A stretch of DNA of 49,313 bases from a virus. The position numbers and the translations under genes were made by a program. Positions 4,946 to 48,595 of this stretch are shown here, piece after piece (within the stretch, counting starts at the first letter, position 1; each line of letters begins with the position of its first letter). The stretch lies in IMG/VR virus record IMGVR_UViG_3300031775_000003, positions 1 through 49,313 of that record, one strand, 5' to 3'. The notes under the pieces are model-generated. The model saw only the letters and a program-made list of their open reading frames with translations, made no database searches and was not told the DNA's origin.

Positions 4946-4984
4946 TTTATTACACTTGTGTAACTATATGTGTATATTTTAACG
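4946..4984. promoter_or_regulatory. Divergent intergenic region between tube-like and LRR genes
   Basis: This short AT-rich gap separates two divergent genes, so it should hold promoters for both. It contains AAGTGTAATA on the minus strand (plus-strand 4949-4957), about 10 nt from the minus-strand ATG. It also contains TATATTTTAA just before the plus-strand start. Neither gene has a clear Shine-Dalgarno sequence. Promoter assignment is by position only. Confidence 0.35.
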
Positions 4985-21345: not shown

Positions 21346-21717
21346 TTACACTTTGTATTCCCCTTTGATTTTTTTAAGAAAATTTAAGAATTTCCTAGAC
21401 TTCGGAGCTGTTTTCGGAATATACACACCATGCTTATTGTCTATCAAGCTAAAAACAAAAAAAGGCAGACCCCATTCCTCTGAAAAGGTAAGGTCTTTTT
21501 TCGAAAATTCCGAATCACAATCCACATGAGAATGGAAAATACCCATCAAACCTTTCGCTTTTATCACCTCTCTAGGTTTTATACTAAAAAGATGCTTCTT
21601 ATCCTCCGCCACATTCTGAATTGATTTAATATCTATCTTTCCTTTATTATAAAGAACAAACCCGCAAATTTCCTCATTAGGCTTTTCCTTTGCTATTGAT
21701 TCTATTCTCTTTTTCAT
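21346..21717 (-). CDS. K: Lambda K-like JAMM metalloprotease (123 aa), no NlpC/P60 domain
   Basis: The protein is a stand-alone JAB1/MPN (JAMM) zinc peptidase domain. The metal-binding signature is complete: Glu15/16 in NEEICGF, H62-S-H64, then seven residues, S72 and D75 (HSH-x7-S-x2-D). Lambda K joins this domain to a C-terminal NlpC/P60 cell-wall peptidase; the gene here ends after the JAMM fold, so that part is absent or encoded elsewhere. The ATG at 21717 overlaps the L stop as TGATG; a TTG one codon earlier is possible. The stop region contains the AAAGTGTAAT word found before other genes. The expected role is proteolytic tail-tip maturation. Confidence 0.88.
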   Translation of the reverse strand: MKKRIESIAKEKPNEEICGFVLYNKGKIDIKSIQNVAEDKKHLFSIKPREVIKAKGLMGIFHSHVDCDSEFSKKDLTFSEEWGLPFFVFSLIDNKHGVYIPKTAPKSRKFLNFLKKIKGEYKV

Positions 21718-24335: not shown

Positions 24336-25161
24336 TGTAATTTATTTCAGGAACATTCATCGAGAAAGCTTTGTATTGAAGGCTCGCCGTTACTTGATCG
24401 TTATAGTTTCCTGCTATTGATTCAGAAACAATACTAGCATCCTCTATTTTGTACTCGATATTTTTAGAAGAATCGCACTTGTCTGAAATCTTTATATTAA
24501 TGCCTGTTAAATCTATACCATCTCTAATCGTCGTATAAACGTTCTCTGATTCGTAATCGTCTACTTCTATCGTTAAATTGAGAGATATTTCGTAAGGCAG
24601 CGTGAGGTTTACTTGCTTCGGGAATTTCGAACCTATCCCGTAATGAGCATCCCTGATTACCCTTACTCCATATTGAAAACTAGTAACTCTATTAGTCTCT
24701 CTCCCCTTACATTCTATTTCTATTCCGCTGGAAGATGGAATAAATTTAGTTTCATTTTTGCTTTTTAATTCTCCAACGGAGAAATCCCCTCCCATTTCGC
24801 CGAATACAGATAGGGCAAATTGCTCTTGCGGCAAATCATCAGGAGAGAAAGAAGCCCTATATTCAGTCATGAAACCACTTTGAAACGCTAAGCTTTTTTC
24901 TCCATATTTAAATAATCCACTAAAGCCTTCTTCACCCAGCCATTTAGTTATCCCCGATGGCTGGGACGTCATATCCTTGGAAACCGAAAACTGCCCTATT
25001 GAGGGCGAAGTTTGAAAGGGCATAACCCTTCCCTTGTTCCCTAGAAAAGTCGACTGATCAGATTGTACCGAATAACCCCCATCCAGGCTTTGAACTCCTG
25101 AAATCGCGTAACCATCTAAATAAAAATCTTGATCAAATCCATTTATATTGCCTTGTGCCAT
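24328..25161 (-). CDS. Tail-tube-like minor tail protein (277 aa)
   Basis: This is a beta-rich virion protein whose N-terminus NINGFDQDFYLDGYAISGVQSLDGGYSVQSDQ and C-terminus (a strand with NYNDQVTASLQYKAFSMN) have the tube-protein arrangement, with paralogues at 23571, 40284 and 3821. The ATG overlaps the tape measure stop as TAATG, with GGGG nearby upstream. In lambda nothing lies between H and M; here two tube-like genes occupy that gap. A role in a distal ring or tube cap is inferred from fold and position, not demonstrated. Confidence 0.55.
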   Translation of the reverse strand: MAQGNINGFDQDFYLDGYAISGVQSLDGGYSVQSDQSTFLGNKGRVMPFQTSPSIGQFSVSKDMTSQPSGITKWLGEEGFSGLFKYGEKSLAFQSGFMTEYRASFSPDDLPQEQFALSVFGEMGGDFSVGELKSKNETKFIPSSSGIEIECKGRETNRVTSFQYGVRVIRDAHYGIGSKFPKQVNLTLPYEISLNLTIEVDDYESENVYTTIRDGIDLTGINIKISDKCDSSKNIEYKIEDASIVSESIAGNYNDQVTASLQYKAFSMNVPEINYNV

Positions 25162-34100: not shown

Positions 34101-37100
34101 TAATTCCAATTTCTCGGCTGGAGTTTTGTTTTTGAGTTGTTTTGTGGTTGGAAGCCACCTCTTTTTCGAAGTATCGCTAGCCTCAACAGCCGCGATCTCT
34201 TTTGCGCGAGCTCTAGCCAATATATCCTGCTCTATCGCCGCCATCGAATTCCAAGTTTCTTGCTTCGCCCCGCGCATAATATCAATCTGATTTTTTTCTA
34301 CTTCTGATTGAGCTTTTTGAGTTTTGGCTTGAGCCGCCTTAGCCAAACTAGCCTGACTTGGTTTTCCTCCCAATTCCTTTGTTAGTATATCTTCAAGCCT
34401 TCCGCTTTTAGCTAACACGTCAAATATATCCCCGGAAGGTCTGTTTCTAAATTTCTTTTGCCTTGAGAGGGATTCCTTTATGCTTCCTTCTGCTTTGGAA
34501 TAGAATTTGTGTATAAAATCATTTTTCGTATTCTGTTGAGATGGAGGCACTATTGAAAATCCACTGCCAGGACTACCGTAACCATGCTCATACATAGGGA
34601 TTGTCTCAAACCCTTTCTTTTGTTGGATATGAGATATAAGAGTTTCGTGCTTTACCCTAGAAAGCATATCCCAAACCTTCGAGTCTTTTAGGTTTAAAGC
34701 TCCGGAGGAAGTGGCCTTTTGCCAACCAAGGCCAGATTCTTTCGATGTTACTGTCAATCCAGATAGATTCTTAGAAGAAAAGAATTCACTTACGGCTGCC
34801 TGTTTTTGATTTCCACTCGCATATTTAACAAAATCATCAAACGAAGAAATCATTGAGGAATCATAATCTTGAATAATTGGGTTGGATGTTTTTGTCCCTC
34901 CCAGACCCTTGGGGAGAAAAGCATTTCCCTTGTCTTTCAAACCTCCTAACCAATCATAAAATCCCGCTGTCTTTACATTAGGGATTGCCCCTAGTTCTCC
35001 CGCAAATGACTTATAACCTTCCGTGCCTATTATCTTATTTTTAATACCTTTGGTTAATCCTTCTCCTAAGGAATGTTGAACAAGAGAGTTTACATCTAAA
35101 TTTCTCCATTGCCCACCCCTTGCGCTCCACATATGCTCCTTCAATGATCCGATGGTTTTGGTAACCCATGGCATATAATTCGGAACGAAACCTTTGTTCT
35201 TCATGGGGATTCCATGAGCTTTTATCATATTCCAATCTAACGCATGTTCCCCGAAAGAACCTGAACCCTTGGGTGGAGACCCTCCTTTTAAATGTCTTGT
35301 TACCCCGCCCCGAATTTGATTATAACCCATGTCTTTCCCGACCAAGGTTTCATAATTCGATAAACTTGTAAATTTCCCGCTTTTTATTGTAGAGAGGTAT
35401 TCTTCTAAAGGCAAACGGATAAGCCCCTTTGGCTGATAGTCCATCCTCCCTAGCACATGAGGTTCCATGTCTTTCCATGGTTTTAGATTAGGAATAATCC
35501 TACTATAAAAACTCGAATCCTCTTTTCGTCCAGAGTTTACTACTTCATGAAACTTAACACCCCTTTTCTCAGCCAAATTCCGTATAAATTCATCCTGTTT
35601 AATAGCCTGAATGAGATAATCGTCTTTTTGATCTATTCCAAATTTCCTACCTCCGTAACTAAGCACGGAATCTCTCAGCCCGGAGTATTTTATTGCGGTA
35701 TATCTGGCTTTTTCTGCAGATTTTTGCGCAGATTTTTGTGACCCCTGCTTTAGGGCGTAGCCGGGGCTGAGGGGAGATGGCCCGGGAATGTTTATTCTCA
35801 TTCCATAGTTCGGAACATGGCCTTTGGCGTTCCAAAAGGCGGGATGATTCGGCGACATATCACCGTAAGGATCCAAGGCTTTTTTCAGGACCGGACCATG
35901 AATCATATTAGAAAGAGTATTGTCGTCTAGGCTTGAAGGAATAGTTAGTTTATCATGCTTGCCATGAGGATATGCTTTCGGTGACGCAGAAGTATCCCCA
36001 TATTGCTTGCGTTCAATAAGTCGTTTTAAAATAGTAGAAAAATCTCCTTTTTGTAAATCCTTAAGGGCTGTTTGATGTACTTTGGGCTTGTGGGTAAAGC
36101 TATAAGCATCATCAATCCACATTCTAAAGCTGTGGGCTTCTGCATCCGTCAAACCGTATGCTTTTTTAGCATGACTTAATAATTCTTTTGATCCCGAATA
36201 AGGAGAAGCCGCAGGCGAATATGAAATCGAATTCGCATGAGTAATTGGTTTAATGCCGCCGCCAGAAAGTTGTTGGAGCCATTTTTCCTTAGCCATTAAT
36301 TTGGTAAAACCTAAATTCCCGGGTTGGCCCACATAATTCGGAACGAAGCCTTTATTAAAGTTTAATTTTCTGCGGAGTTTCTTGAATTGAGCGGAAGACA
36401 TTCCATCCTGCATAGCTAATGATTTTAAAAGATCAATATTTTCAATGTTTCCTCCCCCTCTTCCGGCGTCCACGATTTTTATCATGCCTTTGTCAACTAA
36501 TCCCTTGGAAAGTTGATTAATGATATTTCCTGCTTTCATCCACTGAGGTGAGAAGGATGAAGGAGATCGTTCCCAATTTTGAGGGAGTCCTTGAACTGCT
36601 TTTGTTATTTCTGCATGAGCAGATTTGTGATATATTGCATTACCAAGATTCAAATCCGGGAGTGATAGCCCTGCCCCAGAGGCTTCGCCCTTAAGACGGT
36701 CTTTTACGTCTTTATTAAGTAATTTAGCGAAAACATCAGTTTCTCCATCGGAGCCTCTTCGACGAAAGAGCCTAGGCATAATATCACCAATGTCGCCCAT
36801 GAGTTTGCCACCCACGAATTCTTTTCTCATTCGGCCATGTGTTATAGCTTCCCCGAAACCACTACGAAGACCCGCAATATTTTTAGGCATACTTGCTGAA
36901 AGAGTATTTATTCTAGCCCACTCTTCAATCATTTCTCTATAAGCTCTTTCTTGCTCGCTTTTATTCCCTGATCGCCATCTTGCTCTTTTTTCTATTTCGG
37001 TAAGTGAAATTCGACTAACGGAACCAAACTCACCACTCCCAAGGAACCTTCCTCTTTTAGAAAATCCGGCCCCATGTTCCCCGGAAGGATAGGCCATGGA

Positions 37101-40100
37101 ATAATAGGTCTTTTTCGGGTCTTGTATTCCTGATTTTTGGTCAGCTGGAGTCCTTCTCCCGTCAACTACTTGAAGCCCGAAAGGCTTCTTGAAGTCTACA
37201 TTTCTAGGAAATCTACGAGAAGGAGAAGAAATCGGTGATAAGGAGGCATAATTCGGAACATGGCCTTTCCCGAAAAATCTTGTTTCTCCAGAAGAGTTTC
37301 TTCTGCCGAAATTCTCCCTAGCCAGTCTCTCTGCATACAATTCACTCCAAGGGGCGTTTACATCCAACACCCCTTCTCCTCCAGATTTTGCAAAATGTTC
37401 GGCTAATTTCTTTTTGGCAATATTTATTTCATTGGGAGTTGCTCCGCTTCCCGGTCTTAATTTAGCCCTAAGTCCCGCTATCATATTGGGAGTAAGAGCG
37501 TAATTCGGAACAAATCCCTTATTTCCAAAACGCCAAAGGTGAGCGCCCCCCTTCTTCCTTTCCAAGCCAATATTTGCATACTGAAGAGCGGTGGACATAT
37601 TTGCCGTCATCCACGTAGCCCCACCAGCATGCTTCCCTATCCCTTCCTTGCCTTGGTACTCCGCAAAACTTCTACTGCTTCCTAGATCTTTAAGCTCTTT
37701 GCTTCTAAAATTACTCCTGAAGGATCCTGTTCGAAACATGGTGAGAAGTTCCTCGGGCAATGCTTCGGGATGTGATTTTACTAATTTCGCTACGTAATCT
37801 TTAGAAAGAATTTGCGTTGATTGACTATGTGTTTTTGCTTTTCTGGCATTTCCGCGCATATCCTCATAAGTTCCTTCCTTCCCGTATCTGCCAACGTTTT
37901 GTATCTGAAGCCCCCGAGAGGAGCCGCCGTATTGCCTTGGTTCTCTTGAATAATGCCTTATAAAACCAAGCACTTCATCGGAAAGAATCCTGCCTGCAAC
38001 TTTATTGGTAGCTGTTTCGCCAATAGCGCCCCGATGGTATTCCAAACGCTGGTAATCTACACTTTTTTCGTGTCTTTTTTGTATTTTTTTATTATCCAGG
38101 ATCCATGTCCATCCCGTATTATATGATTTCGAACCCCCTGCACTAACTCCCCCTTCGGGCTTGCCTATACCCCTGAAAACCATTTTAAGTGGCTCATTTT
38201 GTCCGTAATGACCCTGTAGGCCGTGCCTACCTTTGCCCAGTTCTTCTGGCGTTATATTTCTAAAACCTTTTCTAGGTATATGCAACGGCGGGGCATTATA
38301 ATTCGGAACAAATCCTGTACTATATGGATTAAATCCATGAGTCTTTTCAAATGCCTTTCTATGTTGCCTTCCCGCAGGACTAGCTTTTGGAGGTCTAATT
38401 TCAGGTTGAGCCATGCCCGGATATCTTACTACCTTTTCGGCAGTATTCATCACCGACCTACCTTCTCCGGGGATATTAATGGCTTTTACTTTCCCAGGTC
38501 TATATCCACCCGCATATGCCCCCATCTTTTCTGCGATTTTCTCTTGAGGCAATACATAATTAGGAACATGCCCTTCGCTTTTTCCTGGCCTAAGTGACGA
38601 ACCAAAACCTCCTCTAACTACTGCTGGGGCAACACTCTTGGAAACAGCAGCCACTCTTGCCGCCGCCGCCGCTTGTTGCTGAAGTAATGTTAAAATAACC
38701 CTTTCTTGAGCAGCCTTATTTCCGGAAAGAGCCAGCAACTTTTGTTGCAGCCCCATATTTTGACTCAATAATTGATTAATGCTAGCTTGAACGGTTTTTT
38801 GTTTTTGGGTTTGACTGGTCAATTTCATCATTTCCAAAACGCTGCCCCCAAGGAACTTCATCGTCATGCCCGCCAATTTCCCTAAGATACCCACAAACAA
38901 TACTAGTCCCGGACCAGTAAGAACTTTCCCCAATCCCTTCAGGAAACCCTTGGCTGCTTTTGAACCCCAATCGTCAGAATCTTTGCTTAAAGCGCTATTA
39001 AGCCATTCCGATGAATTTTTAACAACGTCGAAAACGTCTCTTATGCCGGGAGCTAAGGAAAGTTGCCCAATTGTATTGGCTAATTCCTTTACAGATATTA
39101 CAGTCTCTTTTCCAAGAGAATGCAATGTTTTTTGCAGTAATATGTTTTTTCTGTGAGCTTCCCCGGAAGCATTCGACGAAACCTTTGTCGCTCTCGAAAG
39201 AAGATCAGTTTCGTTTCTTTGGTCTTTTATTAATGCTTTTAAAATATTAATCTGAAATACTCCACCTACTTTTTCCGCAATAGAAGCTTTGGCTGCATCC
39301 CCTACTTGATCGTAAGTATCCGATAGATTCTTTAATGCCTGTATAGCAGGCAAGGTATTGCCTTGGACATCTCTAACTGCGATACCTAAATCCTCGAGTG
39401 CATTTATTGTACTACCTCTTTGTATCCTCGTAAATATTGTCTTTAAACTATTCCCGATGACCTTACCTCCCCGAGCAGTCATTTGTTGGGCTGCGGTTAC
39501 AGTTCCCAACAGTTGATCGAAATTTACCCCCGCATCTTGAGCCACTGCACCCGCTCTTGATACTGCGTCAATAAGATCTTCAGTGCTAACGGCGAACCTA
39601 ACGTCCACAGCAGCCATTTTATCCAATATCTGAGTAGAAGTAAGGGAAGCGTCTGTGAACGTATTGATAGCCGCAGTCAAGCCCTTAACCGCCTCTGCTG
39701 CATCCATGCCTGTTAGTCTTACAAGAATCAGGGCATCATTTGTTCTTTTTAGGGTCTCCTCCATAGTAAGACCCTGTCTTGCGAATTCTGTTGCGGCTTT
39801 TGATACTTCATCAAAACTTTGGGCCGTATTCTTAGCTACTCTAAATAAACCTTGGCTGAAGTCCTCAAGCTTGCTAGAGCTTAATCCCATGACTACATTA
39901 ATGTCAGCCATCGCCTTTTCCACTTCAACTACAGTTTTTGCTAACTCCGTGAATGCTCTTTGCACTCCGTAAATTATTCCTACCGAAGCACCGAAAGCCA
40001 ATACGCGAGCATTTGAAGCCTCAAGGGATTTATTGAACTCGCTTACCTGCCCAGTAATCTTGCCGAGGGGCCTAGAGAATTGCTTGCTATTTAGATCTAC

Positions 40101-40187
40101 GCGCAAGCCCCGCCTATTAACGGAATTGACGGTCTTTTCAATAGACCGACGGAGCCCTCTCTCGTGAACCTGTACCTTAATCGCCAT
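25161..40187 (-). CDS. H: Giant tape measure protein with inserted effector-like module (5,008 aa)
   Basis: Residues ~60-340 match the phage tape measure (TP901/PhageMin_Tail) core: VYEVEKAMADINVV-like start, FDEVSKAATEFARQG, GMDAAEAVKGLTAA and FTRIQRG. A hydrophobic segment lies at ~422-453. Residues ~541-2444 hold nine [KT]G[FH]VPNY-type motifs with unrelated segments between them, including a kinase-like domain (~1040-1250) and a possible ADP-ribosyltransferase (~640-890). Residues ~2500-4600 are long helical/coiled coil with Ala/Gly-rich hydrophobic stretches at ~3036-3052, ~3088-3115 and ~3312-3385. Two copies of the common C-terminal cap (LTGGEYVINRRSAQMYG and LTGGEFVMGSSAVNKYG) end the protein at ~4632-4675 and ~4892-4940. 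Lambda H is 853 aa. A Shine-Dalgarno (AAGGA) precedes the ATG. It sets tail length and probably enters the cell during injection. Confidence 0.92.
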   Translation of the reverse strand: MAIKVQVHERGLRRSIEKTVNSVNRRGLRVDLNSKQFSRPLGKITGQVSEFNKSLEASNARVLAFGASVGIIYGVQRAFTELAKTVVEVEKAMADINVVMGLSSSKLEDFSQGLFRVAKNTAQSFDEVSKAATEFARQGLTMEETLKRTNDALILVRLTGMDAAEAVKGLTAAINTFTDASLTSTQILDKMAAVDVRFAVSTEDLIDAVSRAGAVAQDAGVNFDQLLGTVTAAQQMTARGGKVIGNSLKTIFTRIQRGSTINALEDLGIAVRDVQGNTLPAIQALKNLSDTYDQVGDAAKASIAEKVGGVFQINILKALIKDQRNETDLLSRATKVSSNASGEAHRKNILLQKTLHSLGKETVISVKELANTIGQLSLAPGIRDVFDVVKNSSEWLNSALSKDSDDWGSKAAKGFLKGLGKVLTGPGLVLFVGILGKLAGMTMKFLGGSVLEMMKLTSQTQKQKTVQASINQLLSQNMGLQQKLLALSGNKAAQERVILTLLQQQAAAAARVAAVSKSVAPAVVRGGFGSSLRPGKSEGHVPNYVLPQEKIAEKMGAYAGGYRPGKVKAINIPGEGRSVMNTAEKVVRYPGMAQPEIRPPKASPAGRQHRKAFEKTHGFNPYSTGFVPNYNAPPLHIPRKGFRNITPEELGKGRHGLQGHYGQNEPLKMVFRGIGKPEGGVSAGGSKSYNTGWTWILDNKKIQKRHEKSVDYQRLEYHRGAIGETATNKVAGRILSDEVLGFIRHYSREPRQYGGSSRGLQIQNVGRYGKEGTYEDMRGNARKAKTHSQSTQILSKDYVAKLVKSHPEALPEELLTMFRTGSFRSNFRSKELKDLGSSRSFAEYQGKEGIGKHAGGATWMTANMSTALQYANIGLERKKGGAHLWRFGNKGFVPNYALTPNMIAGLRAKLRPGSGATPNEINIAKKKLAEHFAKSGGEGVLDVNAPWSELYAERLARENFGRRNSSGETRFFGKGHVPNYASLSPISSPSRRFPRNVDFKKPFGLQVVDGRRTPADQKSGIQDPKKTYYSMAYPSGEHGAGFSKRGRFLGSGEFGSVSRISLTEIEKRARWRSGNKSEQERAYREMIEEWARINTLSASMPKNIAGLRSGFGEAITHGRMRKEFVGGKLMGDIGDIMPRLFRRRGSDGETDVFAKLLNKDVKDRLKGEASGAGLSLPDLNLGNAIYHKSAHAEITKAVQGLPQNWERSPSSFSPQWMKAGNIINQLSKGLVDKGMIKIVDAGRGGGNIENIDLLKSLAMQDGMSSAQFKKLRRKLNFNKGFVPNYVGQPGNLGFTKLMAKEKWLQQLSGGGIKPITHANSISYSPAASPYSGSKELLSHAKKAYGLTDAEAHSFRMWIDDAYSFTHKPKVHQTALKDLQKGDFSTILKRLIERKQYGDTSASPKAYPHGKHDKLTIPSSLDDNTLSNMIHGPVLKKALDPYGDMSPNHPAFWNAKGHVPNYGMRINIPGPSPLSPGYALKQGSQKSAQKSAEKARYTAIKYSGLRDSVLSYGGRKFGIDQKDDYLIQAIKQDEFIRNLAEKRGVKFHEVVNSGRKEDSSFYSRIIPNLKPWKDMEPHVLGRMDYQPKGLIRLPLEEYLSTIKSGKFTSLSNYETLVGKDMGYNQIRGGVTRHLKGGSPPKGSGSFGEHALDWNMIKAHGIPMKNKGFVPNYMPWVTKTIGSLKEHMWSARGGQWRNLDVNSLVQHSLGEGLTKGIKNKIIGTEGYKSFAGELGAIPNVKTAGFYDWLGGLKDKGNAFLPKGLGGTKTSNPIIQDYDSSMISSFDDFVKYASGNQKQAAVSEFFSSKNLSGLTVTSKESGLGWQKATSSGALNLKDSKVWDMLSRVKHETLISHIQQKKGFETIPMYEHGYGSPGSGFSIVPPSQQNTKNDFIHKFYSKAEGSIKESLSRQKKFRNRPSGDIFDVLAKSGRLEDILTKELGGKPSQASLAKAAQAKTQKAQSEVEKNQIDIMRGAKQETWNSMAAIEQDILARARAKEIAAVEASDTSKKRWLPTTKQLKNKTPAEKLELIEELRRKYPPPPGPPPPIAFSKLAKMGKSYRSTFTDIEKMEGRHGTTPFPPRDEKAFLESQKRFAAAELKSQQPTVAVTPGSNEPMAMGLSLSSGKIWEKAKKQVMSQAGRSFKKDEKREFDIIDAIKEVSPSGIKTTSGHKYAGELDSVGLLAKGAGRSLRSKSKGETIDQVLAALPEHGYSPGSFDDLWEMIRSASEQRVLAQAALYRENIENATLTALTNGKGIGNFMGMKDIKTLKESGLKQINSEKLRVGQTFEVRGHPFKVKSFNLENGHLELASLGQGVSGSAGSIGYSIRSGESIYIDGGKLSNTQPSQKLGDPFSKGFVPNYAMISPGASNILRANPSFTSATVDSIKRESAFGVTPQVVAAPQLKSGTNPGLAVVNKEQEGGSLAKARKLHGGLNPKQGKSLGHVPNYSMFDSFGNFSIPLGDADAAAKAMERQLNINKAQGLKRQRDATPAFPQGSKGAHVDASKAGMKGFWGDTLGGDKDADKAYRKSIMALSPELKKSVKLFEGLNKATTAYHAEQARATGGLKAIRKDPAYQGHFNQKAIAETLRQDKYKNAGLARALGSNPSEAKIHSAIKANMDITNSKKASPGAILQANQSISMMMSLLKDSKNTFNKITRSDNQMKEGERKMASAQVRAEDQKALSAIAQSKAIQKTLNTAQQYSGFGTGASGLGKGKTRQLMRTLAQEFGKSQGLRDTRFLMGAQHGGTDPTTQVQRALARDFMKTVQDAGIKSSQGHLASSGYLKGGFFDTTPGSNMKSGGGALYGGQKITKEWNAARDSVYDKTPARKGHGAINKLNQAATDKAEKKARDKRAQGLRTERRERDLSKKHGNALKEHSKALTGFNKAVKGGTFIDRIRTRLSSTGLGGLLGGTGEAKAVKASQREAMKTAMTSGSSRMADRMHGNLAAQAAVAAEARQTAKTDAAKKKILKDLAANPKPKMGINYHSGRYASYGNQTLAEIRQQHGMMGAMGAGTQRIGAGTKDFMKNAAKSLGTPRPGMGSMGMGFVLPMIAGYLTPDQGKYERSDYNAESGRFEVNREQGRQNLQPLLTGAGMGAMIAGIPGMIVGAGIGWVKAMNDLTLTTKEIAEGMEKNIQRISASVQAADVLMPMVEKRAKASRMGDTVASSRIGSEIRNALMKITDPSIQAEMIGNISSPEAFGKVLEKHSRDLALQQNVSGAMLSMSEGGKRGLSRAGSQIGGIIFQRMDDIDKGLITVRDQQGKERTKESMLKDLKALSETAAKKNSSGLSSSEIKDLRRRAGGPGTLPGASNIITAPGIGGMILGAAAVAAIAAMVVGTGGLAAAAAPVVAEGALAAGAAGAATGFAPILAGGMMGAGLGAGVGGMIDKNWAQGELKASEATREMFDVIGQLKELGAISEEHAKFLTTAYMDSNLSGLALSKEINKAIERYEKIDDGLKLQSERIFNVNLAYDQLFHKLKKESIRIKEEGRHVGQTTAIRGQAHASFSSTAGEQAEAQRDFAFKKLSISQESTRKSTEVDLRSSYIDWMRKGPMAKLGAPDKVGLVREIERQDRPELKSIAGLTDYFKNDFTYQFDLLKGLDRKSQKTELTLQQDSLSKILKDKSKSNREKEVAFGEDPKFKGIVNTGGIEAYKKRIDQLLKDLEALPDGQALGEGVAVYEREIKLNKKNLENLEFKDKQLQDQLKLIKEANENAQTELRLQTEINIAKGKMLTHIGVLNSKFSLGLSEKQLTLGEEKGSLSLDKNFLKNTQEEPFRYNNESKQFESQQKLMEGVQSEEHKIRKAENLIQAKEEIQRFLSNEKLIYSLDNLRGQVDELSAAITGSKPDDTASFALSGEEKSRIQEQTKKRIEEINRSTGVTKIEEKLAGVRAHNKALGGEFRTQEGARQADIKSGGEKLANIRGMLVDFQNVIVDLGNHGGSRFENAQIEKKAGLTTTGAGRGASTQLAIELLRGLTGEDNKKIEIGGKFYKGWLDVMSRDLSSHTPSLRAGLLSYEEAKKDKPAYRLTRRNDAENTTTLQDLIGRAIAGIEGRQAAIEEGRQTTPEEKKNFQIAEAILKSLNAMGRDRSGRFYLNKGGVDRFGEALSMNNIPLKGIDSKVHAAVRLLEDAAEVGKNFKDNLGHPNNPIKKEQYRNIGGPLESINRNPINTTSLDKELAQAKLNAEEEIKKHIENIIDQANTKRQGVKLEPLQSPWSSVRRPTGRALIDKLTSVQEMQARSTRQVAIVKKVKGSVSNKTGGFDVSNFERELGNIDRAKDAKALEDVLSKMVTKDLEEGMKNGLNTLINRLKLIRENLERTNKQEILELMTRRQTYEDSMMSSALFRPQMKESSGILNLSRGEEFSGGRIRESINAMGVGTDIAAFNQWSQSARQYEAINASSTSTDLEKASARSLISGVTYSAGMELNQGGDGVQRMQQRQRFNSLADAEEWNKNNMEVLHSKRTDAQRSILEARNEIAEKFKDQELTKEQIEKKEDEDPAIQKARKTVEEVDELLKQLGGSLERHVPRDDGFGKEFMTNMGRGLGVGFAEVQSQAEEIYTKLGVQLPHALRDGLTDAMMLAVEGADELGDRLKEIGTGFLKIIQRAFLESAASRVVGAFGMNSGGKVVGGSGVKDDVPAVLTGGEYVINRRSAQMYGYGFLEKLNRGEAQGFARGGAVNMNITAGRAAEREEYTDENKKYGDVTKYKTIKKGRAIDRRMSGFAIDNDPLIAKMFKDQESQFGEDLRTKEMLSDREKAKQQAKKNRKHMLLQLAASAGIAWGAKKATDWMKKTKTYKKWSGRKFERRARRELNAGRGVKIEGNGQTYRHSNKDARTAERAHLEKLYDNGRGESAMLEYAQRHGIGMDYSRGAMQNSYTRERPPFHQQVKLKRNSGGSVPTQANSLLTGGEFVMGSSAVNKYGTGFMSRLNSGSVSRHSEGGLVGSSGGSASNTNNDINITVNVDKSGGTQDTEVAGNSANEEKILAKKIKTAVLDVINDQRRVGGSLRG
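25370..26290. repeat. Duplicated C-terminal cap of the tape measure
   Basis: Two copies of the motif LTGGE[YF]V[IM]xxxx[AV]xxYGxGFxxxLNxG, each followed by an RGGAV- or EGGLV-type end, are encoded near 26160-26290 and 25370-25510. Single copies of this GGE motif typically end siphophage tape measures. Between them lies a basic, Arg/Lys-rich segment. Confidence 0.7.
36440..37070 (-). other. Kinase-like domain within the tape measure
   Basis: Residues ~1040-1250 of the tape measure show a glycine loop LGSGEFGSV (1049-1057, G-x-G-x-F-G-x-V), a helix with EQERAYREMIEEWARIN, a hinge-like RKEFVGGKL, a catalytic-loop pattern DLNLGN (D1178-x4-N1183, the spacing of HRDLKxxN) and IKIVDAGRG with D1240 in the place of DFG. 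The gap from D1178 to D1240 is 62 residues, longer than the usual ~20, so an insertion is implied. Overall this is a divergent kinase-fold domain, with activity unproven. Confidence 0.55.
37511..38300 (-). other. Possible ADP-ribosyltransferase-like domain within the tape measure
   Basis: Between the second and third VPNY motifs (residues ~630-890) lie KMVFRGIG (Arg672) and, about 185 residues on, ATWMTANMSTALQYA (W859 to A871). This R ... [ST]-x-x-x-x-TA-x-x-YA layout resembles ADP-ribosyltransferase toxins and the related domains in phage polyvalent proteins. A catalytic Glu is not clearly placed. The call is tentative. Confidence 0.3.
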
Positions 40188-40283: not shown

Positions 40284-41741
40284 CTAGCAACTTGAACTAG
40301 CTACCCAAGCAGGCATTGGGTCATCAGTAGGAGGAGCAAGTCCGGAAATATAAATTCCGTGCTCGTCATCCTCTGGCCCGCCAATTTGAGTACTAAAGGT
40401 AAGATCTACCGACTTATTGCTTCCAATATCGGATGTGATATTTTCGCTATCGATTCTAGCTCCCTTGAAGTCGAAAATCAACGAATCTTTAGCTTCTCCA
40501 GCGGTGCAAGACTCATTGTATTTCATTTGGACCTTAACGTCATGCTCTTCGCAATCGTCAAGCATGTCCGCAAGATTCCCGGTATTCAGCTCTGAAACTA
40601 GAGCATTAACGGTCATCGAAGCCGTCACTGGGAAATCAACTACTCTAGAGAATGCGAACCTGGATCCGATTCTGTCGATTGGTGTTCTAGACAGAGGGAT
40701 AGAAAGGTTGAAGCTTTGAATATTGATTTCATCAACATCATTGAACAGGGACAGCTTAGAAGGAATCGTTAGCTTTATGTCTCCCGGTCTAAGAGCGGTT
40801 GCGTGAACATTTCCACTATCTGCAGGAGGAAGAGAAAATTCCGTAGGTGTTATTGGAGATCCTTTTTCCAGATCAACAGAAGGAACGCCAAGTTCTTGAG
40901 TTCCCGCATCGGACTTAGCGTTATACAACTCAATCGTTGCAGAAGCAGAAGGAATAGCTCCGACAGAAGCCTCAATGCTCCAGTCACTAAGATATCCGTT
41001 ACCAAGGGCGATTGTTCCCTTGTTGCTGTCCCCGCCTGAATAATTCACAGCATCCGTGCCTTCCGGGGAAGTCATGATGAAGAAGTTCTGTCCTTTGCCT
41101 GCGTCCTTCAAGTGAAGGCCAGCTGCGTTTTGAACATCATTCCCGTTAATGCCTTGAACATGAAAGTTCAAAAGACTTTCGTTCCTACCGTCTGTTGGGT
41201 AGTAATTGAAGTCCAAGTTAACTGTGGGTGGCTCCAGAACAAGAGAATCGATTCTAGCCAATTGGCCAAATTCATTAACATCTGTTCTATTGATAGTAAA
41301 ACTATAATTAGCACTTTGAACTCTATGGATTTGTTGAACCAGATTTTCTACGGAACCTTCCGATTGTTCGCCGGGAATAAGAAGATAACCGGTAGAGGCT
41401 TTATTAGTGGACTTGAAGTCAGTGTAATCGCTTAACTTATTATATAAAATGTGCTTTCCAGGCACAGGGTCAGGATTATTAAGAAGTCCATAATCGGCTG
41501 CAGCGATTCCAAGATCTCCTGAGATAAAAGCCTGAAGACAGTTCGCGCTAGACCCCGGTGTCGACCATTCGGTTTGGGTTGGGTTCAATTGATCAATACC
41601 GACGTCGGTAATGTCAATGTCACTCTCAGTATTGGCGACATTATCCCACCGTTTGATCTTCTTTAAAACGTAGTGAGCTCCGGTAGCGTTAGGGCTAACG
41701 AAAAGGGCTTCACTTTGATAAATTACTCTGTTTCTGGCCAT
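40284..41741 (-). CDS. V: Major tail tube protein (485 aa)
   Basis: The gene lies in the lambda V position, upstream of the tape measure. The N-terminal third includes LLIPGEQSEGSVENLVQQIHRVQSANYSFTINRTDVNEFGQ, and the middle LEPPTVNLDFNYYPTDG and YLSDWSIEASVGAIPSASATI are strand-rich segments typical of tube subunits. The C-terminal half begins SFNLSIPLSRTPIDRIGSRFAFSR and looks like a second, related domain, suggesting a two-domain tube subunit. Three paralogous genes (3821, 23571, 24328) share parts of this layout. No strong Shine-Dalgarno; the ATG at 41741 opens with MARNRVIYQSEALFVSPN. A terminator hairpin sits just after its stop, consistent with a high-copy product. Confidence 0.75.
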   Translation of the reverse strand: MARNRVIYQSEALFVSPNATGAHYVLKKIKRWDNVANTESDIDITDVGIDQLNPTQTEWSTPGSSANCLQAFISGDLGIAAADYGLLNNPDPVPGKHILYNKLSDYTDFKSTNKASTGYLLIPGEQSEGSVENLVQQIHRVQSANYSFTINRTDVNEFGQLARIDSLVLEPPTVNLDFNYYPTDGRNESLLNFHVQGINGNDVQNAAGLHLKDAGKGQNFFIMTSPEGTDAVNYSGGDSNKGTIALGNGYLSDWSIEASVGAIPSASATIELYNAKSDAGTQELGVPSVDLEKGSPITPTEFSLPPADSGNVHATALRPGDIKLTIPSKLSLFNDVDEINIQSFNLSIPLSRTPIDRIGSRFAFSRVVDFPVTASMTVNALVSELNTGNLADMLDDCEEHDVKVQMKYNESCTAGEAKDSLIFDFKGARIDSENITSDIGSNKSVDLTFSTQIGGPEDDEHGIYISGLAPPTDDPMPAWVASSSC

Positions 41742-41813: not shown

Positions 41814-42653
41814 TTAACTTTGTTGCAAAAATCTCACAGAAATAACCTCGAAATCCAAGAATCCTAAATAAATAGATGGTGAAATTTGCTGTCGGACTCC
41901 CTCTCCCACCTTCGCAGTAACAACTCTATCTATCATGAAGAATGGCGATTTCTCGGCTAATTTAGACTGATATGAAAAGGATTCGTCCTTTAAGTCCCCT
42001 TTTTCATTAATAGGATGATCGTCGAATCCGATAAGAGGGAAATGAACTGTGTGAGTATCTGCAAATATAGAGGAAATTCCATCAAGTTGGTACATATTCT
42101 CGGCCATAACCACAGATTTGAACATAATAGTGGTCTCGGATTGACCCCCAAATGCAAACCCTTTGTTTTCTATTGTTTCGCTATTTATAAATACAGCAGG
42201 CAAAACCTGATCATATGGAGATATCGCCTGCAACGTTTGATTAAACCTGCTATTCGTTTCGAATTTTTTCTCTACAATTAAATCATCTTCGTATAAATTA
42301 GTATTATATATGTTAAAGTCTTTTACTTTATATTTTGCCGTAATATTTAAATTGTTGGAAGCGGAAGATCCGAAAAATACAATTCCTCCGTTTTCGTAGT
42401 CAATCCAATATCCGTAATCTGGATCATTTTTATTTAATAAAATTTCAGATTTATATATTTCAGGGGTTCCATAACCGTATACCCACTGCTTATATGGGCT
42501 TGAGTATCTAAATACTCCATCCGGCAGTCGGTTGTCTTCGACGTAATAAAGCTGAGTCTCATGATCAGAGAAGCCTTCTCCCTTATTGATCAAATGATTA
42601 TCAAACCAGAGAGTAAAACTAGTTACCGCTTCATGATTAAATTGAACTTTCAT
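41814..42653 (-). CDS. Putative neck / tail-terminator region protein (279 aa)
   Basis: No named family recognised. The sequence has strand patterns (VTSFTLWFDNHLINKGEGFSD, YGYWIDYENGGIVFFGSS, LNITAKYKVKDFNIYNTNLY) and a C-terminal segment ending YLGFLDFEVISVRFLQQS. The start is the ATG at 42653, whose ATGA overlaps the upstream stop with GGGAGTGGG about 10 nt before; the longer reading from 42698 begins inside the upstream gene and is rejected. Position between the neck genes and the tube gene corresponds to lambda Z/U, so a tail terminator or completion role is inferred. Confidence 0.55.
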   Translation of the reverse strand: MKVQFNHEAVTSFTLWFDNHLINKGEGFSDHETQLYYVEDNRLPDGVFRYSSPYKQWVYGYGTPEIYKSEILLNKNDPDYGYWIDYENGGIVFFGSSASNNLNITAKYKVKDFNIYNTNLYEDDLIVEKKFETNSRFNQTLQAISPYDQVLPAVFINSETIENKGFAFGGQSETTIMFKSVVMAENMYQLDGISSIFADTHTVHFPLIGFDDHPINEKGDLKDESFSYQSKLAEKSPFFMIDRVVTAKVGEGVRQQISPSIYLGFLDFEVISVRFLQQS

Positions 42654-43321
42654 GTTATGGTCCCACTCCCGGGGTATTGTTTCATCCTTAGTTTCCAAAG
42701 TTCCTTGCCTGCGTTTTCGACAATCTCCCTCATATATTTTTTAGTTTTAAACGAACCTGCGAAATTTCCCTTGCCCCGCGCAGACTTAAGCTGTTGCTTC
42801 GCTTGCAACCCGGTGCCGGAAAGACTTATCTCCGGCTTTCTAAACCCCGTGGGAGAATAAATATACTGCCCTAAACCAGACAACCCAGTCTCAATTCCAT
42901 CTGCCCAAGATCTCCCCGGGGCCCAAGATAGATGGGTTTTATCCCATATTGAGGATAATATTTCTTTTCGATCAGGAAGATTAAACCAAACTCTTGCGGT
43001 TCTTGAAACCACCCTCACTTCACTAATGACAAACATAGTCTGCAAAACCTCTCGAATTTCATCGGTAGGGGTATCACCTTGAACAAAACCAATAAAACTA
43101 AATAAATTACCTTTATGAAGGGATCCTGATGTATTTTCCGCATTCGGGCCATCCTCAATTTCCCTTGTTATCTTGTGATTGTTAAACTCCGACATCATTT
43201 TTGCTTTAATTTTTTCAAAATCCGCAATAGCACCAGACATCATCGATCTCTTATACTCTGGTTTTCGTGACATCTGCCTGCGAATACTGGCTACGTCTGC
43301 CTCCGGAACATCCTTGCTCAT
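42650..43321 (-). CDS. Putative neck / tail completion protein (223 aa)
   Basis: No named family recognised. The N-terminus (MSKDVPEADVASIRRQMSRKPEYKRSMMSGAIADFEKIKAKMMSEF) is helical and basic, and the C-terminus (AKQQLKSARGKGNFAGSFKTKKYMREIVENAGKELWKLRMKQYPG) is a lysine-rich helix. Between them are strands with VVSRTARVWFNLPDR. An HK97 gp10/lambda Z type role is possible from size and order. It overlaps both neighbours by ATGA junctions, showing translational coupling. Confidence 0.55.
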   Translation of the reverse strand: MSKDVPEADVASIRRQMSRKPEYKRSMMSGAIADFEKIKAKMMSEFNNHKITREIEDGPNAENTSGSLHKGNLFSFIGFVQGDTPTDEIREVLQTMFVISEVRVVSRTARVWFNLPDRKEILSSIWDKTHLSWAPGRSWADGIETGLSGLGQYIYSPTGFRKPEISLSGTGLQAKQQLKSARGKGNFAGSFKTKKYMREIVENAGKELWKLRMKQYPGSGTIT

Positions 43322-44355
43322 TCTACAGCCTTTAGGAAAAACGTATAAAACTTAGGGTCAAACAAACCATGGGGCCTAACCGCAGAATCAATTAAGAATC
43401 TTTTTCCGTCCAAATCAATGCGTTTCGCTCCGGATATATAATCAAATCCTTCTTTATCTAGTTTGACCCTTACCATGCCTTGTGGTATCATCGCATTTAA
43501 TTTACTATCAATAGGGCTTGCTGAAAGAGGGTCTTCATTCATTGGTGAAGCATATTCTATTCTGGCTTTTATTGTCTTGTATTGAGGGGTTCGAGATATA
43601 TCATCTGCCGATTTCGGGGCGGTTTTTTGCACAAGCCTTACATTGTCCCATATAGAAGCTTTGTTATTAACGCCGGAATCATCATGGGTGATTCTTATCT
43701 TTATGTTTTTATTTATTGAACCCGAAACGTTTTCAGTCTTGAACGAAGTGGAAAAATCATTAAATTGATCTACGGCCAAATCTTCAGAATTGATTATTAA
43801 TTCCGATAGTTTTTCGTCGTCTGAGTCATGCAATGATATTATGGCTCTCCCCCAGTCAAGGCCTCCCCCGGCTGAATAATAAGAAGATTGGCCTATAGCT
43901 GCAGTTAAATGATAAGAACTATCTTTTTCGATTTGCCCTAGATTCGGAGAGGTTAGCGACCATTCCACATTCCCTTTCATTCTCAAGTAATAAGTTCCTT
44001 CGTCAGCATTTGCTGGGTTTGTAGCTCCGGCATCCTGTCCCGCCTCAACTATTTCCGTTCTCCATTGTCCTTGATTAGTAGCGGTCCAATTAGCCGGGGA
44101 AATTTTCAAATCCACACCATCTCCTGCTTCGCCATCAGACTCAAAGGATCCATTAGGTACGGTTAATGAGGTGCTTTGAACAGCCGAATTGCTCCTTGTA
44201 TATTCTCCATATATCGGATTATGCTCCATGGTTGTATTAATCACAACTTTTTTAGCTTCCTTATAAACAAGGATGTCCCTAGAGAATGTATCATGAAGAT
44301 CCTGAAATACATTTCCTAACTTTTCCTTGTCTGCATCTGACAGTAAATTAGCCAT
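43318..44355 (-). CDS. Head-tail connector with inserted carbohydrate-binding-like domain (345 aa)
   Basis: Two flanks, residues ~1-60 (FQDLHDTFSRDILVYKEAKKVVINTTMEHNPIYGEY) and ~250-345 (TPQYKTIKARIEYASP, then VRVKLDKEGFDYISGAKRIDLDGKRFLIDSAVRPHGLF), read as one connector/adaptor fold. Residues ~65-244 interrupt it with a beta-sandwich: VPNGSFESDG, GQWRTEIVEAG, GTYYLRMKG, SYHLTAAIG, then KNIKIRITHDDSG and IWDNVRLVQ. That series is typical of CBM4/9-like carbohydrate-binding jellyrolls, which end in a DNV strand. The ATG at 44355 is preferred; a longer frame from 44451 would add an implausible Cys/Tyr-rich leader crossing the divergent promoter. Stop overlaps the next gene as ATGA. Confidence 0.6.
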   Translation of the reverse strand: MANLLSDADKEKLGNVFQDLHDTFSRDILVYKEAKKVVINTTMEHNPIYGEYTRSNSAVQSTSLTVPNGSFESDGEAGDGVDLKISPANWTATNQGQWRTEIVEAGQDAGATNPANADEGTYYLRMKGNVEWSLTSPNLGQIEKDSSYHLTAAIGQSSYYSAGGGLDWGRAIISLHDSDDEKLSELIINSEDLAVDQFNDFSTSFKTENVSGSINKNIKIRITHDDSGVNNKASIWDNVRLVQKTAPKSADDISRTPQYKTIKARIEYASPMNEDPLSASPIDSKLNAMIPQGMVRVKLDKEGFDYISGAKRIDLDGKRFLIDSAVRPHGLFDPKFYTFFLKAVE

Positions 44356-44428: not shown

Positions 44429-44719
44429 ATGACGGATTGGCATCTTCTCAAGGAGGGACACGAAAGGCATGTTAGAAGGCTTTTTAAGGATTTTTTGTAT
44501 TTGTTGGAAGACCTGCAAAAAGATCATTCGATTAATTTCGACAAGCTTAAAAAAAGCATTCCAGAGTCTTATTCGGATATAATTGATCAAGCAAATTATT
44601 TTGATGGTCAAAAAATGCAATACTTACGCAAGCGAGTATTAGACCTTGGAAATGACTCAATACGTAGCTCAGAAGAAGATTTAGAAAAATTTACTGTAAT
44701 TTTTAAATTTAATCATTAA
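44429..44719 (+). CDS. Small hypothetical helical protein (96 aa)
   Basis: No family recognised. The sequence is mostly alpha-helical and charged (LKEGHERHVRRLFKDFLYLLEDLQ, then FDKLKKSIPESYSDIIDQANYFDGQKMQYLRKRVLDLGN). A weak AAGG lies before the ATG. It is the first gene of the plus-strand island, separated by 21 bp from the next gene, which has AAGGA. It could be an assembly factor or a regulator; the sequence does not say. The reading is supported mainly by the absence of any minus-strand gene here and by its place in an operon. Confidence 0.5.
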   Translation: MTDWHLLKEGHERHVRRLFKDFLYLLEDLQKDHSINFDKLKKSIPESYSDIIDQANYFDGQKMQYLRKRVLDLGNDSIRSSEEDLEKFTVIFKFNH

Positions 44720-44740
44720 TATATAGGAACAAGGATTTTT

Positions 44741-45502
44741 ATGAAAGAACTATACAGCTTTAGCATCGAAGTGGAACGCGAGGTCGAAAAGACCGATACA
44801 AAAAAACAGAAGAATAAAGAATCTGGAGAAATGGAGGAGATCTCGGTAACCAAAACAGTTAAGGAAATGGTTCCGGTCAAGATAATCATCAAGGAGCCAA
44901 ACAGAAGGGATGTCGAGGAAGCTGACATGGAATATAGCATTGAATTAAGTAAATGCATAAAGAAAGGCGTTCTTACTAAAGCAATGCTAGCCAAGAAGTA
45001 TAGCGACACGGGAGGATTGTTATCCGAAGAAGACGCTCAGTTGTTGACACGAAAGTATACCCAACTCGCTGAACAACAATCCAAGTATACCCGTCTTGAA
45101 GCAAAAACGAAAAAGAATAAAAAAGAACAAGACAAGGTTGACGGATTATTGTCTGATCTTGCGGAATTAAGAAGAGAGATCGTGGATTTAGAAACCGCGT
45201 ATTCTTCGGTCTTTAATCATACGGCAGATACCAAAGCTCAAAATAAAGTAATATTATGGTATCTAGTGAATTTATCATATTACCAAGAAAACGAAGATGA
45301 TGACATTAATTCGTTTTTCATAGGCGAGGCCTTGGAGGATAAAATCGATGAATATTACAAGATAGACGAAGAGGGTCATGACTTATTTGACGTGGCAAAA
45401 CATAAGCTCATGTCTTTTATTAGTTTTTGGTATTTTAGCTCTGGCGCAAGCAAGGAAGACTTTGATAGCCTGAATAAGGACATCGAAGAAGGAAACGTTT
45501 AA
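44741..45502 (+). CDS. Putative tail assembly chaperone-like protein (253 aa)
   Basis: No database family can be assigned from sequence alone. The N-terminal ~100 residues (a beta start, KIIIKEPNRRDVEEADMEYSIELSKCIKKGVLTKAMLAKKYSDTGG) suggest a compact helical domain; residues ~85-150 form a long coiled coil rich in Lys and Glu. It ends with TAA followed immediately by TGA. AAGGA precedes its ATG. The two G/T-type chaperone genes expected between tube and tape measure are absent there, so this gene and its neighbour are candidates for that role, which is inference from size and context. Confidence 0.45.
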   Translation: MKELYSFSIEVEREVEKTDTKKQKNKESGEMEEISVTKTVKEMVPVKIIIKEPNRRDVEEADMEYSIELSKCIKKGVLTKAMLAKKYSDTGGLLSEEDAQLLTRKYTQLAEQQSKYTRLEAKTKKNKKEQDKVDGLLSDLAELRREIVDLETAYSSVFNHTADTKAQNKVILWYLVNLSYYQENEDDDINSFFIGEALEDKIDEYYKIDEEGHDLFDVAKHKLMSFISFWYFSSGASKEDFDSLNKDIEEGNV

Positions 45503-45505
45503 TGA

Positions 45506-46483
45506 GTGAAGAAGACCTTATATCGTAAGGTTTTTTCCGATATAGTAAGCGGTTATTCTTTGTCGGAATTCGGCGGCAATGCTATATACATACGCCACCT
45601 CAGTACTCACGATCAAGTTAATTTAGAAGATATTGAGTCTTCTTTTTATGAATCCGCAAAAGATCGAGGGTTGCCAACGGAAGAGGAAGCTCTCAAGTCA
45701 TTAAAGGCCGATCATCTATGGACGCAGGAAGATGAGGACTTTATTTCCAGACAATCTTCTTATGTTGAAAACTTAATAAAGGGAAAGTCCCATTTAATCC
45801 TTAAGTCTCAAATAGACCAACAAAATAAATTAATAGAAGAAGAGAGCGAAAAACTTAATATAAAGACATCAGAAAAAGATAGTCTATTGGGCAATACCTG
45901 CGAAAAATATTCCAAACAAAGAGTAAACGACCACTACATTATAGAGAGTTTGTTTCTTGATTTGGAAATGAAAAAAAAGCTGTTTACGGAAAATGAATTA
46001 GATGATGTTGGATATAAGTCACTACATGGATTGATAGAAATACATAATAAAAACTTTCAAATGTTCTCTGAGGATAATATACAGAACTTAATTCTTCAAG
46101 ATTTTTATTATCCATACATGCCGTTTTCAGAAGACAGTATGCAATTCTACGGAATTCCCGTCTGTAATCTCACGCATAACCAACTTCAGTTATTGATATA
46201 CACGAGGGTGTTTAAGAATATAACGGACAGGCATGATAATATTCCTGAGCATATAAAGAAAGACCCGAAGGCTTTGTTGGATTTCGCCGCCTCGTCTGAA
46301 AAGGGAAAGGAAATGCTCCATCATGATGATGACAAAGGAGGGGCCAGCACTATAATAGGAGCGACTAAGGAAGATTACGAATACATGGGAGTTTCCTCGA
46401 AAGGAGTTTCTCTTCATGATGCCGCCGAGAAAAAAGGCGGAAAACTTGACATGCAAGATTTAATGGACTTGGCTGGGAGTTAA
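45506..46483 (+). CDS. Putative assembly protein with unusual start (325 aa)
   Basis: The frame can start at GTG 45506 (MKKTLYRKVFSDIVSGYS). The better-placed start is an ATG at 45502, which overlaps the upstream TAA as TAATG with AAGGA 8 nt before, but it encodes only MSEEDLIS before a TAA at 45526. A +1 shift there would join it to this frame at KVFSDIVSGYS. The body has an N-terminal mixed domain (GGNAIYIRHLSTHDQ), a coiled-coil stretch (IDQQNKLIEEESEKLN) and a C-terminal acidic/Gly tail (KLDMQDLMDLAGS). The role is unknown; pairing with the 253-aa gene suggests a joint function. Its stop overlaps the convergent minus-strand connector gene by four bases. Confidence 0.5.
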   Translation: MKKTLYRKVFSDIVSGYSLSEFGGNAIYIRHLSTHDQVNLEDIESSFYESAKDRGLPTEEEALKSLKADHLWTQEDEDFISRQSSYVENLIKGKSHLILKSQIDQQNKLIEEESEKLNIKTSEKDSLLGNTCEKYSKQRVNDHYIIESLFLDLEMKKKLFTENELDDVGYKSLHGLIEIHNKNFQMFSEDNIQNLILQDFYYPYMPFSEDSMQFYGIPVCNLTHNQLQLLIYTRVFKNITDRHDNIPEHIKKDPKALLDFAASSEKGKEMLHHDDDKGGASTIIGATKEDYEYMGVSSKGVSLHDAAEKKGGKLDMQDLMDLAGS

Positions 46484-46959
46484 GCCTCTGCCGGGTTAGC
46501 TCTATACAGGTTGTATTTGTATACTAGGTCTTTAAGGCTTATTTCGGTGTCCTGAGAGAACTGCAGGAATGTCTTTGATGCCTGGGTCTTCGTAGCGGGT
46601 GTGGCCAGCGTAGCGACCCTCTTTATGTAACTATCACCTTCCCTCAGTTCTGTCCAATCGGAAGTTACTATTTCTCCTGATCCATCTGTTTCCGTTGAAG
46701 TCGTTTGGACACCCTGCAATATTTTCCTACTCTCTTTTTCGTAATAACTCTTTAAATATAAATGACGAAATATAGCCCGCTCCTCTAATCCCATTCCTGG
46801 ATTTGCGCCACTAAAACATGAGAAAATTAAAGAATTCAATTCTCCCATATTTGCCTCTAGCCACCCAGATATCTGCAGTCCGTTTGTGGCCGTAGACCCT
46901 TCCCCGAAATCATATTCATAAATCCCGGTGGCTATTTCTCCTATTTCGTTCCAGCTCAA
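46480..46959 (-). CDS. Putative head-tail connector / adaptor (159 aa)
   Basis: No named family recognised. It starts at a TTG that overlaps the upstream stop as TTGA; no upstream ATG fits. The N-terminus (WNEIGEIATGIYEYDFGEG) and a long helical run (LNSLIFSCFSGANPGMGLEERAIFRHLYLKSYYEKESRKIL) suit a small adaptor. It occupies the lambda FII position, just after the FI-like gene, so a role in joining head and tail is inferred. Its stop codon overlaps the end of the opposite-strand gene. Confidence 0.5.
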   Translation of the reverse strand: MSWNEIGEIATGIYEYDFGEGSTATNGLQISGWLEANMGELNSLIFSCFSGANPGMGLEERAIFRHLYLKSYYEKESRKILQGVQTTSTETDGSGEIVTSDWTELREGDSYIKRVATLATPATKTQASKTFLQFSQDTEISLKDLVYKYNLYRANPAEA

Positions 46960-47482: not shown

Positions 47483-48595
47483 TTACACTTCGATACCAAG
47501 GATAGCGCGACTATCGAGAATCATGCGACCCTCTTCCATAGCCCCGTAGTAGCCAATCCTTTGTTGTCGAGTGACATATTGGTCATCTACCAAAAGGTTA
47601 AAGCTAGAACCGCTTACCGAATCAACGGCCACAGCTCTCATTAACGATTCTCTAGATTTATCCAGACCAATAACCAGATCCTTCTTGCCGGCCTTAAGAT
47701 TGTTCAGGTTATTATAAATGCCCGTATACTTTTGACTTTCGCCGAGTTCATAGATCTCTTGAATGGAAACTCCGTAAAATTCAGGAATTCCACCGTTGCC
47801 GTAAATCGCTTCCCGCATCGAATCGGTAGCAGGAATGCCTGTGGCCGAAGTGTCGGAAATGGCAGTACCATCAGGATTTCTCGTCGCGATAGGATTGTAA
47901 GCCATCTCGCGGAGAGACTGGACAACCTCAGGAGAAACGATCAGATCCGTGATTCCACGACTACGACTATCAGGAGTTCCGCCACTCCAGGAAGGGCTAA
48001 TTCTCTTAGCTCTCGTAAGGAGGCGATTGAAGTCATGAAGAACGAGTCGGCCATTATCCGTGGAAAGCAAGGTTTGCTCCAAGCCTGTTGCGCCATTATC
48101 GTCTTCCCTTCCTTGATCAACTAGAGTACCTAGGATCAAGTTGGCGGAAGTTCTTTCTTGTTGGAGAAGAATTTCTTGAGCGAGTCGTGTGAAAGACTTG
48201 CTGACAACATCAAGGCGAGACCTTGAGGCATAACGCTTATCGAAGTCAATGGCACTATCAAGACGATAGGTCGTGAACTTCATTTCGCTCTGAGTTGGAG
48301 CTACTGTGTTACTAGGAAGTCCTCCTGGCACCGTCTGGGTATATACCTTGATATAATCCTCTGCGGTAATATCGTAGTACAAATCCAATGGAATGCTTGG
48401 GCTGTCATCAGAATTAAACTCAAACGGAGTAAATAGATTACTCAAAGTGGGAGCGTTATTGATAACCTTAGCTAGCAAAGGCCCGATAAACTCCGCAAGA
48501 GCCAACTGAGCTTCGTATGCGACATTTCGATCCTTCGAGGCCATGGCTTTTACAAGCTCAACCTGCTCTTCGGTTCTTTTAAGTGTAATTTTCAT
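47483..48595 (-). CDS. E: Major capsid protein, HK97 fold (370 aa)
   Basis: Size (370 aa) and pattern fit lambda E-type/HK97-fold capsid proteins. The N-terminus is helical (KRTEEQVELVKAMASKDRNVAYEAQLALAEFI), followed by strands carrying SIPLDLYYDITAEDYIKVYTQTVPGG. A spine-like helix (LVVSKSFTRLAQEILLQQERTSANLILGTLVDQG) lies near ~135-165, with P-domain-like strands at ITDLIVSPEVVQSLREMAYNP and the C-terminal QQRIGYYGAMEEGRMILDSRAILGIEV. No scaffold or protease segment is visible. It lies downstream of the decoration protein, as in lambda D-E, and a strong terminator follows. AAAAGG precedes the ATG. Confidence 0.85.
   Translation of the reverse strand: MKITLKRTEEQVELVKAMASKDRNVAYEAQLALAEFIGPLLAKVINNAPTLSNLFTPFEFNSDDSPSIPLDLYYDITAEDYIKVYTQTVPGGLPSNTVAPTQSEMKFTTYRLDSAIDFDKRYASRSRLDVVSKSFTRLAQEILLQQERTSANLILGTLVDQGREDDNGATGLEQTLLSTDNGRLVLHDFNRLLTRAKRISPSWSGGTPDSRSRGITDLIVSPEVVQSLREMAYNPIATRNPDGTAISDTSATGIPATDSMREAIYGNGGIPEFYGVSIQEIYELGESQKYTGIYNNLNNLKAGKKDLVIGLDKSRESLMRAVAVDSVSGSSFNLLVDDQYVTRQQRIGYYGAMEEGRMILDSRAILGIEV

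Follow-up and report, generated by a model that had tools for sequence, protein, structure and literature searches.

Stoppers are core phage structural proteins that, as hexameric rings, close the head after DNA packaging and join it to the tail. Head-tail joining proteins as a group vary unusually little in structure, considering how diverse they are genetically (PMC10684548). In SPP1 gp16, the β1-β2 loop projects beneath the connector, and helices formed from the β2'-β3 loop shut the channel (PMC9701221); the corresponding gating hairpin of lambda gpFII comprises residues 46-62 (PMC10721106). Phage necks may also bear carbohydrate-binding modules (CBMs), as in the neck passage structures (NPS) of lactococcal 936 phages, one of which binds host cells (PMC6669499). 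Here, we describe a 345-residue protein encoded on an uncultured virus contig with structural genes in lambda-like order (IMG/VR record IMGVR_UViG_3300031775_000003, positions 1 to 49,313, the whole of this 49,313-nucleotide stretch hereafter being called the window). Its open reading frame (ORF; 43318-44355, minus strand; ATG at 44355, stop at 43318, overlapping the next gene) encodes a predicted stopper into which a CBM-like module has been inserted.

The flanks of this module are one split domain interrupted by a contiguous insert, as an earlier note made from the sequence alone had supposed. Using the capsid protein as query, we fetched 80 related contigs. About 30 of these carry, at the corresponding position, an ORF of ~150 amino acids, whose matches to residues 1-60 and 250-343 directly adjoin each other and which also aligns end to end with the flanks once they are fused. 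The alignment sets the insert between NPIY(49) and YKTIKARIEY(259-268). Three further scans with family alignments enlarged the stopper family to 132 distinct sequences, 130 of which have at most five extra residues over the family model and thus lack the insert, as compared with 195 in the two insert carriers. The carriers are the window protein and, at 94% identity, a protein encoded on contig IMGVR_UViG_3300031886_000023. These two form one clade (support 100/100) nested among insert-free relatives, and therefore the module was gained once, and recently; the exact sister group of the carrier clade is weakly supported (95/58).

From an alignment of 66 sequences, AlphaFold2 modelled the full-length protein and predicted the flanks confidently as a helix (7-24), strands 26-37, 253-268 and 294-300, a second helix (301-307) and four more strands, and the predicted structure of an insert-free relative (L070) has the same order of elements. 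In a Foldseek comparison of the L070 model with the PDB, 15 of the top 16 matches were stopper, neck or connector proteins, headed by SPP1 gp16 (E 1.8e-3, probability 1.00) and including the T1 stopper, the P1 connector, the XM1 neck protein and lambda gpFII, with template modelling scores by target of up to 0.63; none reaches E 0.001. Likewise, the matches of the whole window model in a viral structure library include neck and head-tail attachment proteins. By sequence, the flanks match no known stopper family in Pfam and PDB searches, and PHROGs yielded head closure Hc1 just once, weakly (E 0.017), for one of 24 members. Such a missing family match is no bar to stopper identity, because stoppers diverge strongly in sequence. 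Furthermore, the gene lies between the capsid/adaptor and the tail completion/tube genes, in an order conserved across relatives. The consistency of the Foldseek matches, taken together with this gene order, leads us to regard as secure the predicted identity of the flanks as a stopper (head-closure) protein of the SPP1 gp16/lambda gpFII type, despite E values above 0.001, and thus gives a name to what the earlier note had called a neck connector.

The predicted strand order places the insert in the β1-β2 loop and not in the gating loop, since strand 26-37 is followed by strand 253-268 in the window protein, where L070 has strand 26-38 followed by strand 58-74. The N-terminal stopper half (residues 1-50; 44206..44355, minus strand like all parts of this gene) comprises the first helix and β1, with a predicted local distance difference test score (pLDDT) of 85-93 over residues 1-30, and its invariant alignment columns cover the conserved HDTFxR and N46/Y49. 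It is followed by the N-side linker (residues 51-64, EYTRSNSAVQSTSL; 44164..44205; pLDDT <50), the inserted module (residues 65-244; 43624..44163) and the C-side linker (residues 245-258, TAPKSADDISRTPQ; 43582..43623), both linkers being delimited by the family alignment. From β2 onwards, the C-terminal stopper part (residues 259-345; 43321..43581) is recognised by homology and has a pLDDT of 86-91 over residues 291-345. Within it, the presumed gating loop (β2-β3, residues ~269-293; 43477..43551), located by strand order relative to gp16 and gpFII, is unbroken and has a low model confidence, as expected for a flexible loop. With this equivalent uninterrupted, the gate should work, and by topological analogy with gp16 the module is expected to lie exposed outside the channel.

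A single Pfam domain was found in the protein, HpiC1-like (PF22825), which spans residues 63-241 and covers positions 2-173 of the 174-position profile (E 1.7e-9; 38.4 bits, the curated cut-off being 27), and which was recovered independently in the 94%-identical relative. The motifs VPNGSFE (residues 66-72) and IWDNVRL (residues 235-241), by which an insert at residues ~65-244 had originally been recognised, form the ends of this full-length domain match. They had also been taken as marks of a CBM4/9-like module; this label has to be given up in favour of the HpiC1-like family, as the CBM_4_9 profile gave no Pfam match to the protein up to E 1. NCBIfam and PHROGs returned nothing for the 345-residue protein. 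The Stig cyclases, which are related to PF22825, are β-sandwiches whose closest structures are CBMs, with which they have one calcium site in common (PMC9063808), and the HpiC1-like family is part of the wider CBM-like fold that also holds these cyclases. In line with this, Foldseek searches with the low-confidence insert model gave weak matches rich in CBMs and lectin domains (E 0.02-0.2), among them an alginate-binding CBM (probability 0.97), lectinolysin and CBM4s. The Pfam match and these weak CBM matches argue for a jellyroll, short of a confident prediction. By spacing, a presumed calcium site comprises E72, N116, E119 and D237, compared with E39, N95, E98 and D216 of FamC1, the N-E distance of 3 and the E-D distance of 118 (E98-D216, E119-D237) being identical in both proteins, while the FamC1 catalytic D214 and its partner Y89 fall on Ile235 and Gly110. 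This pattern suggests a calcium-stabilised, non-catalytic CBM-like domain.

Among 100 related viral contigs, PF22825 occurs in one, that of the 94%-identical relative. Neither the full protein nor the insert had a significant tblastn match in 50,697 phage genomes; the insert had none in plasmids, nor had the capsid protein any in phages. Among bacterial genomes, the capsid protein matched one contig of doubtful binning, labelled as a Halobacteriovorax metagenome-assembled genome (MAG) and left out of host assignment. A 71.7-kb contig binned in the Halobacteriovorax MAG (L166, PBIO01000004.1) carries this related capsid gene and has a counterpart in the viral collection, and the binning may be wrong or may be a host hint. 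In 144 genomes of that MAG's phylum PF22825 gave no match, but the control genomes gave none either, which leaves this negative uninformative. The GC content (0.42 in the insert, 0.36-0.39 in the flanks and 0.42 in the window) is uninformative on a foreign origin. Between the two carriers, the insert shows a synonymous divergence (dS) of 0.35 and a nonsynonymous divergence (dN) of 0.026, and the resulting ratio of 0.074, which lies between those of the N flank (0.17) and the C flank (0.04), indicates that the insert is maintained as a protein under purifying selection.

As a whole, these observations are best explained, with a probability that we put at roughly 55%, by a stopper carrying six CBM-like modules as auxiliary glycan or surface binders. 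In this one lineage, a predicted CBM-like β-sandwich of ~180 residues with a linker of ~14 residues on each side has been placed in the β1-β2 loop of the barrel, which should fold and oligomerise as usual, so that six modules per virion would probably ring the head-tail junction and face outward. Most likely, they would serve as auxiliary adhesins that attach reversibly to glycans of the host surface, the capsule or the surrounding polysaccharide.

Several points weigh against this explanation. The insert, modelled mostly as strands, has a pLDDT of 32-65 because just two near-identical sequences cover it; the whole-protein prediction proposed in the earlier note thus yielded confident flanks in a stopper-type order, whereas the jellyroll, backed by the CBM-like PF22825 match, was not confidently predicted. 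No Foldseek match of the insert reaches E 0.001, and neither alone nor as a two-sequence profile did the insert give a meaningful match to PDB sequences. In addition, the statements on the calcium site and catalytic residues come from residue spacing, outward display is deduced by analogy with gp16, and glycan binding is a proposal. Finally, CBM-like sandwiches can be purely structural.

The main alternative, possible although rather unlikely, is a structural clamp, in which the sandwich would pack against the ring of the terminator or of the adaptor and strengthen the neck with no ligand involved. The stopper of phage 812 bears an external β-sandwich that its relatives lack (PMC12886913), the gp16 β1-β2 loop points to the tail, and purifying selection is equally compatible with a clamp. 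However, the flexible linkers that bound the insert, each of ~14 residues, are more in keeping with a free domain than with a clamp, the insert is highly acidic (net charge -13) between neutral flanks, and 130 of the 132 relatives assemble without it. On balance, we weigh the adhesin about 2:1 over the clamp. One might go further and regard the stopper-borne modules as a collar that binds a receptor or capsule and is a fixed part of the genome gate; the capture of glycans at the neck could then act mechanically on the opening of the ring and link adsorption to genome release. We hold this extension to be quite improbable. Still less probable is a catalytic role for the insert, as a Stig-type cyclase or some other HpiC1-like enzyme: the HpiC1 cyclase gave the Pfam family its name, but this family also includes non-enzymatic domains, the catalytic Asp and its partner Tyr are by spacing replaced by Ile235 and Gly110, and an indole cyclase would be of no obvious use at the virion neck. 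Least credible of all is that the fusion arose by misassembly or that the insertion has no function and is drifting, which would fit the occurrence in just two carriers and the absence from every other viral contig searched, but not two contigs of conserved gene order that share the insertion residue in frame at a dN/dS of 0.074 and a dS of 0.35 across the insert, and a chimera was rejected, as the 56 synonymous differences of the second, diverged contig exclude a shared misassembly.

The earlier note had also combined the neck module with an insert in the L (hub) protein into a repeated decoration of the virion with glycan binders. This was only partly right. The region of the L insert can be aligned in several relatives, and an oligosaccharide-binding domain lies between the Fe-S cysteines of the RcGTA and R4C hub proteins (PMC7296036, PMC10276861). 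Thus, the L insert is a common feature that differs from the neck insert in age and spread, and since the latter is a single recent gain, the two are separate and belong to no joint programme. In the window, the L/hub protein is encoded at 21717-22649 (minus strand), and its insert (residues ~225-278) looks CBM5/12-like by eye and stands beside the C-terminal cysteines.

The neighbourhood was assigned by synteny, and its structural genes are all on the minus strand. The next gene after the stopper (42650..43321) is a conserved neighbour matched in 268 loci, tail-completion-like by position and with no family match in Pfam, NCBIfam and PHROGs scans. It is followed by a second conserved neighbour, tail-terminator-like by position only (41814..42698), and by the tail tube protein, again by position (40284..41741). 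On the other side lie an adaptor or head-completion-like gene, by position (46480..46959), and the major capsid protein (47483..48595), assigned by position and conservation, which served as the query for fetching relatives. Three plus-strand genes (44429-46483, with starts at 44429, 44741 and 45506) are oriented against the surrounding structural genes and kept in many relatives; the middle one looks to us like a tail-assembly chaperone, and no library names it. In some relatives (L052, L059 and L069), the stopper block has the opposite orientation with respect to the capsid gene. Further genes of the window include a tape-measure-like ORF of 5008 amino acids (25161-40187, minus strand), whose translation repeats a 'KGFVPNY'-type motif many times, and a J-like central fibre protein of 3441 amino acids (10253-20578, minus strand), in which Phage-tail_3 is the sole Pfam match and fibronectin-like repeats are seen by eye. 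A putative virion or surface protein (4970-6559, plus strand) has, close to its C-terminus, leucine-rich repeats (PF13855, E 5e-10), which are unusual for a phage.

CBMs at phage necks are already known; what is new here is the CBM-like module inside a stopper, for which a limited, open-access-only literature search found no earlier example. Probably, one lineage of uncultured tailed phages carries a ring of six extra surface-binding modules per virion at an unusual place. A recent, selected CBM-like insertion with insert-free sisters shows that the genome gate itself is usable as a display platform, with the β1-β2 loop indicated as a natural permissive site. Moreover, the carriers and their insert-free sister phages provide a clean natural with/without pair for the effect of neck decoration on adsorption.

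Compared with known systems, the window protein resembles SPP1 gp16, lambda gpFII, the T1 stopper and the XM1 neck protein in its predicted N-terminal helix, antiparallel β-barrel and unstructured β2-β3 loop, as well as in its gene position between capsid and tail genes. It differs from known stoppers by the 180-residue module in the β1-β2 loop and by the lack of a sequence-level family match. With the HpiC1-like or Stig cyclases (PF22825), it shares the profile family, of which a CBM-like β-sandwich with a calcium site is a feature; unlike these, its insert apparently lacks the catalytic Asp and Tyr, to judge by spacing, and is fused inside a phage structural protein. CBM-type modules at the neck are also found in the NPS of lactococcal 936 and P335 phages. 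However, the NPS is a separate, dispensable collar protein of 500-900 residues, whereas here the module lies inside the stopper, a protein essential in model phages. An extra β-sandwich on the stopper that is missing from close homologues is likewise present in gp97 of phage 812 (PMC12886913), a contractile-tailed phage, although that sandwich carries no CBM assignment in the cited work. Finally, our model is reminiscent of evolved Dit and MTP-TpeX, in which a ring-forming tail protein has acquired a CBM, either internally or as an appendage, that acts as an auxiliary adhesin; those CBMs are found at the tip of the tail or along its length, whereas the module described here would stand at the head-tail gate.
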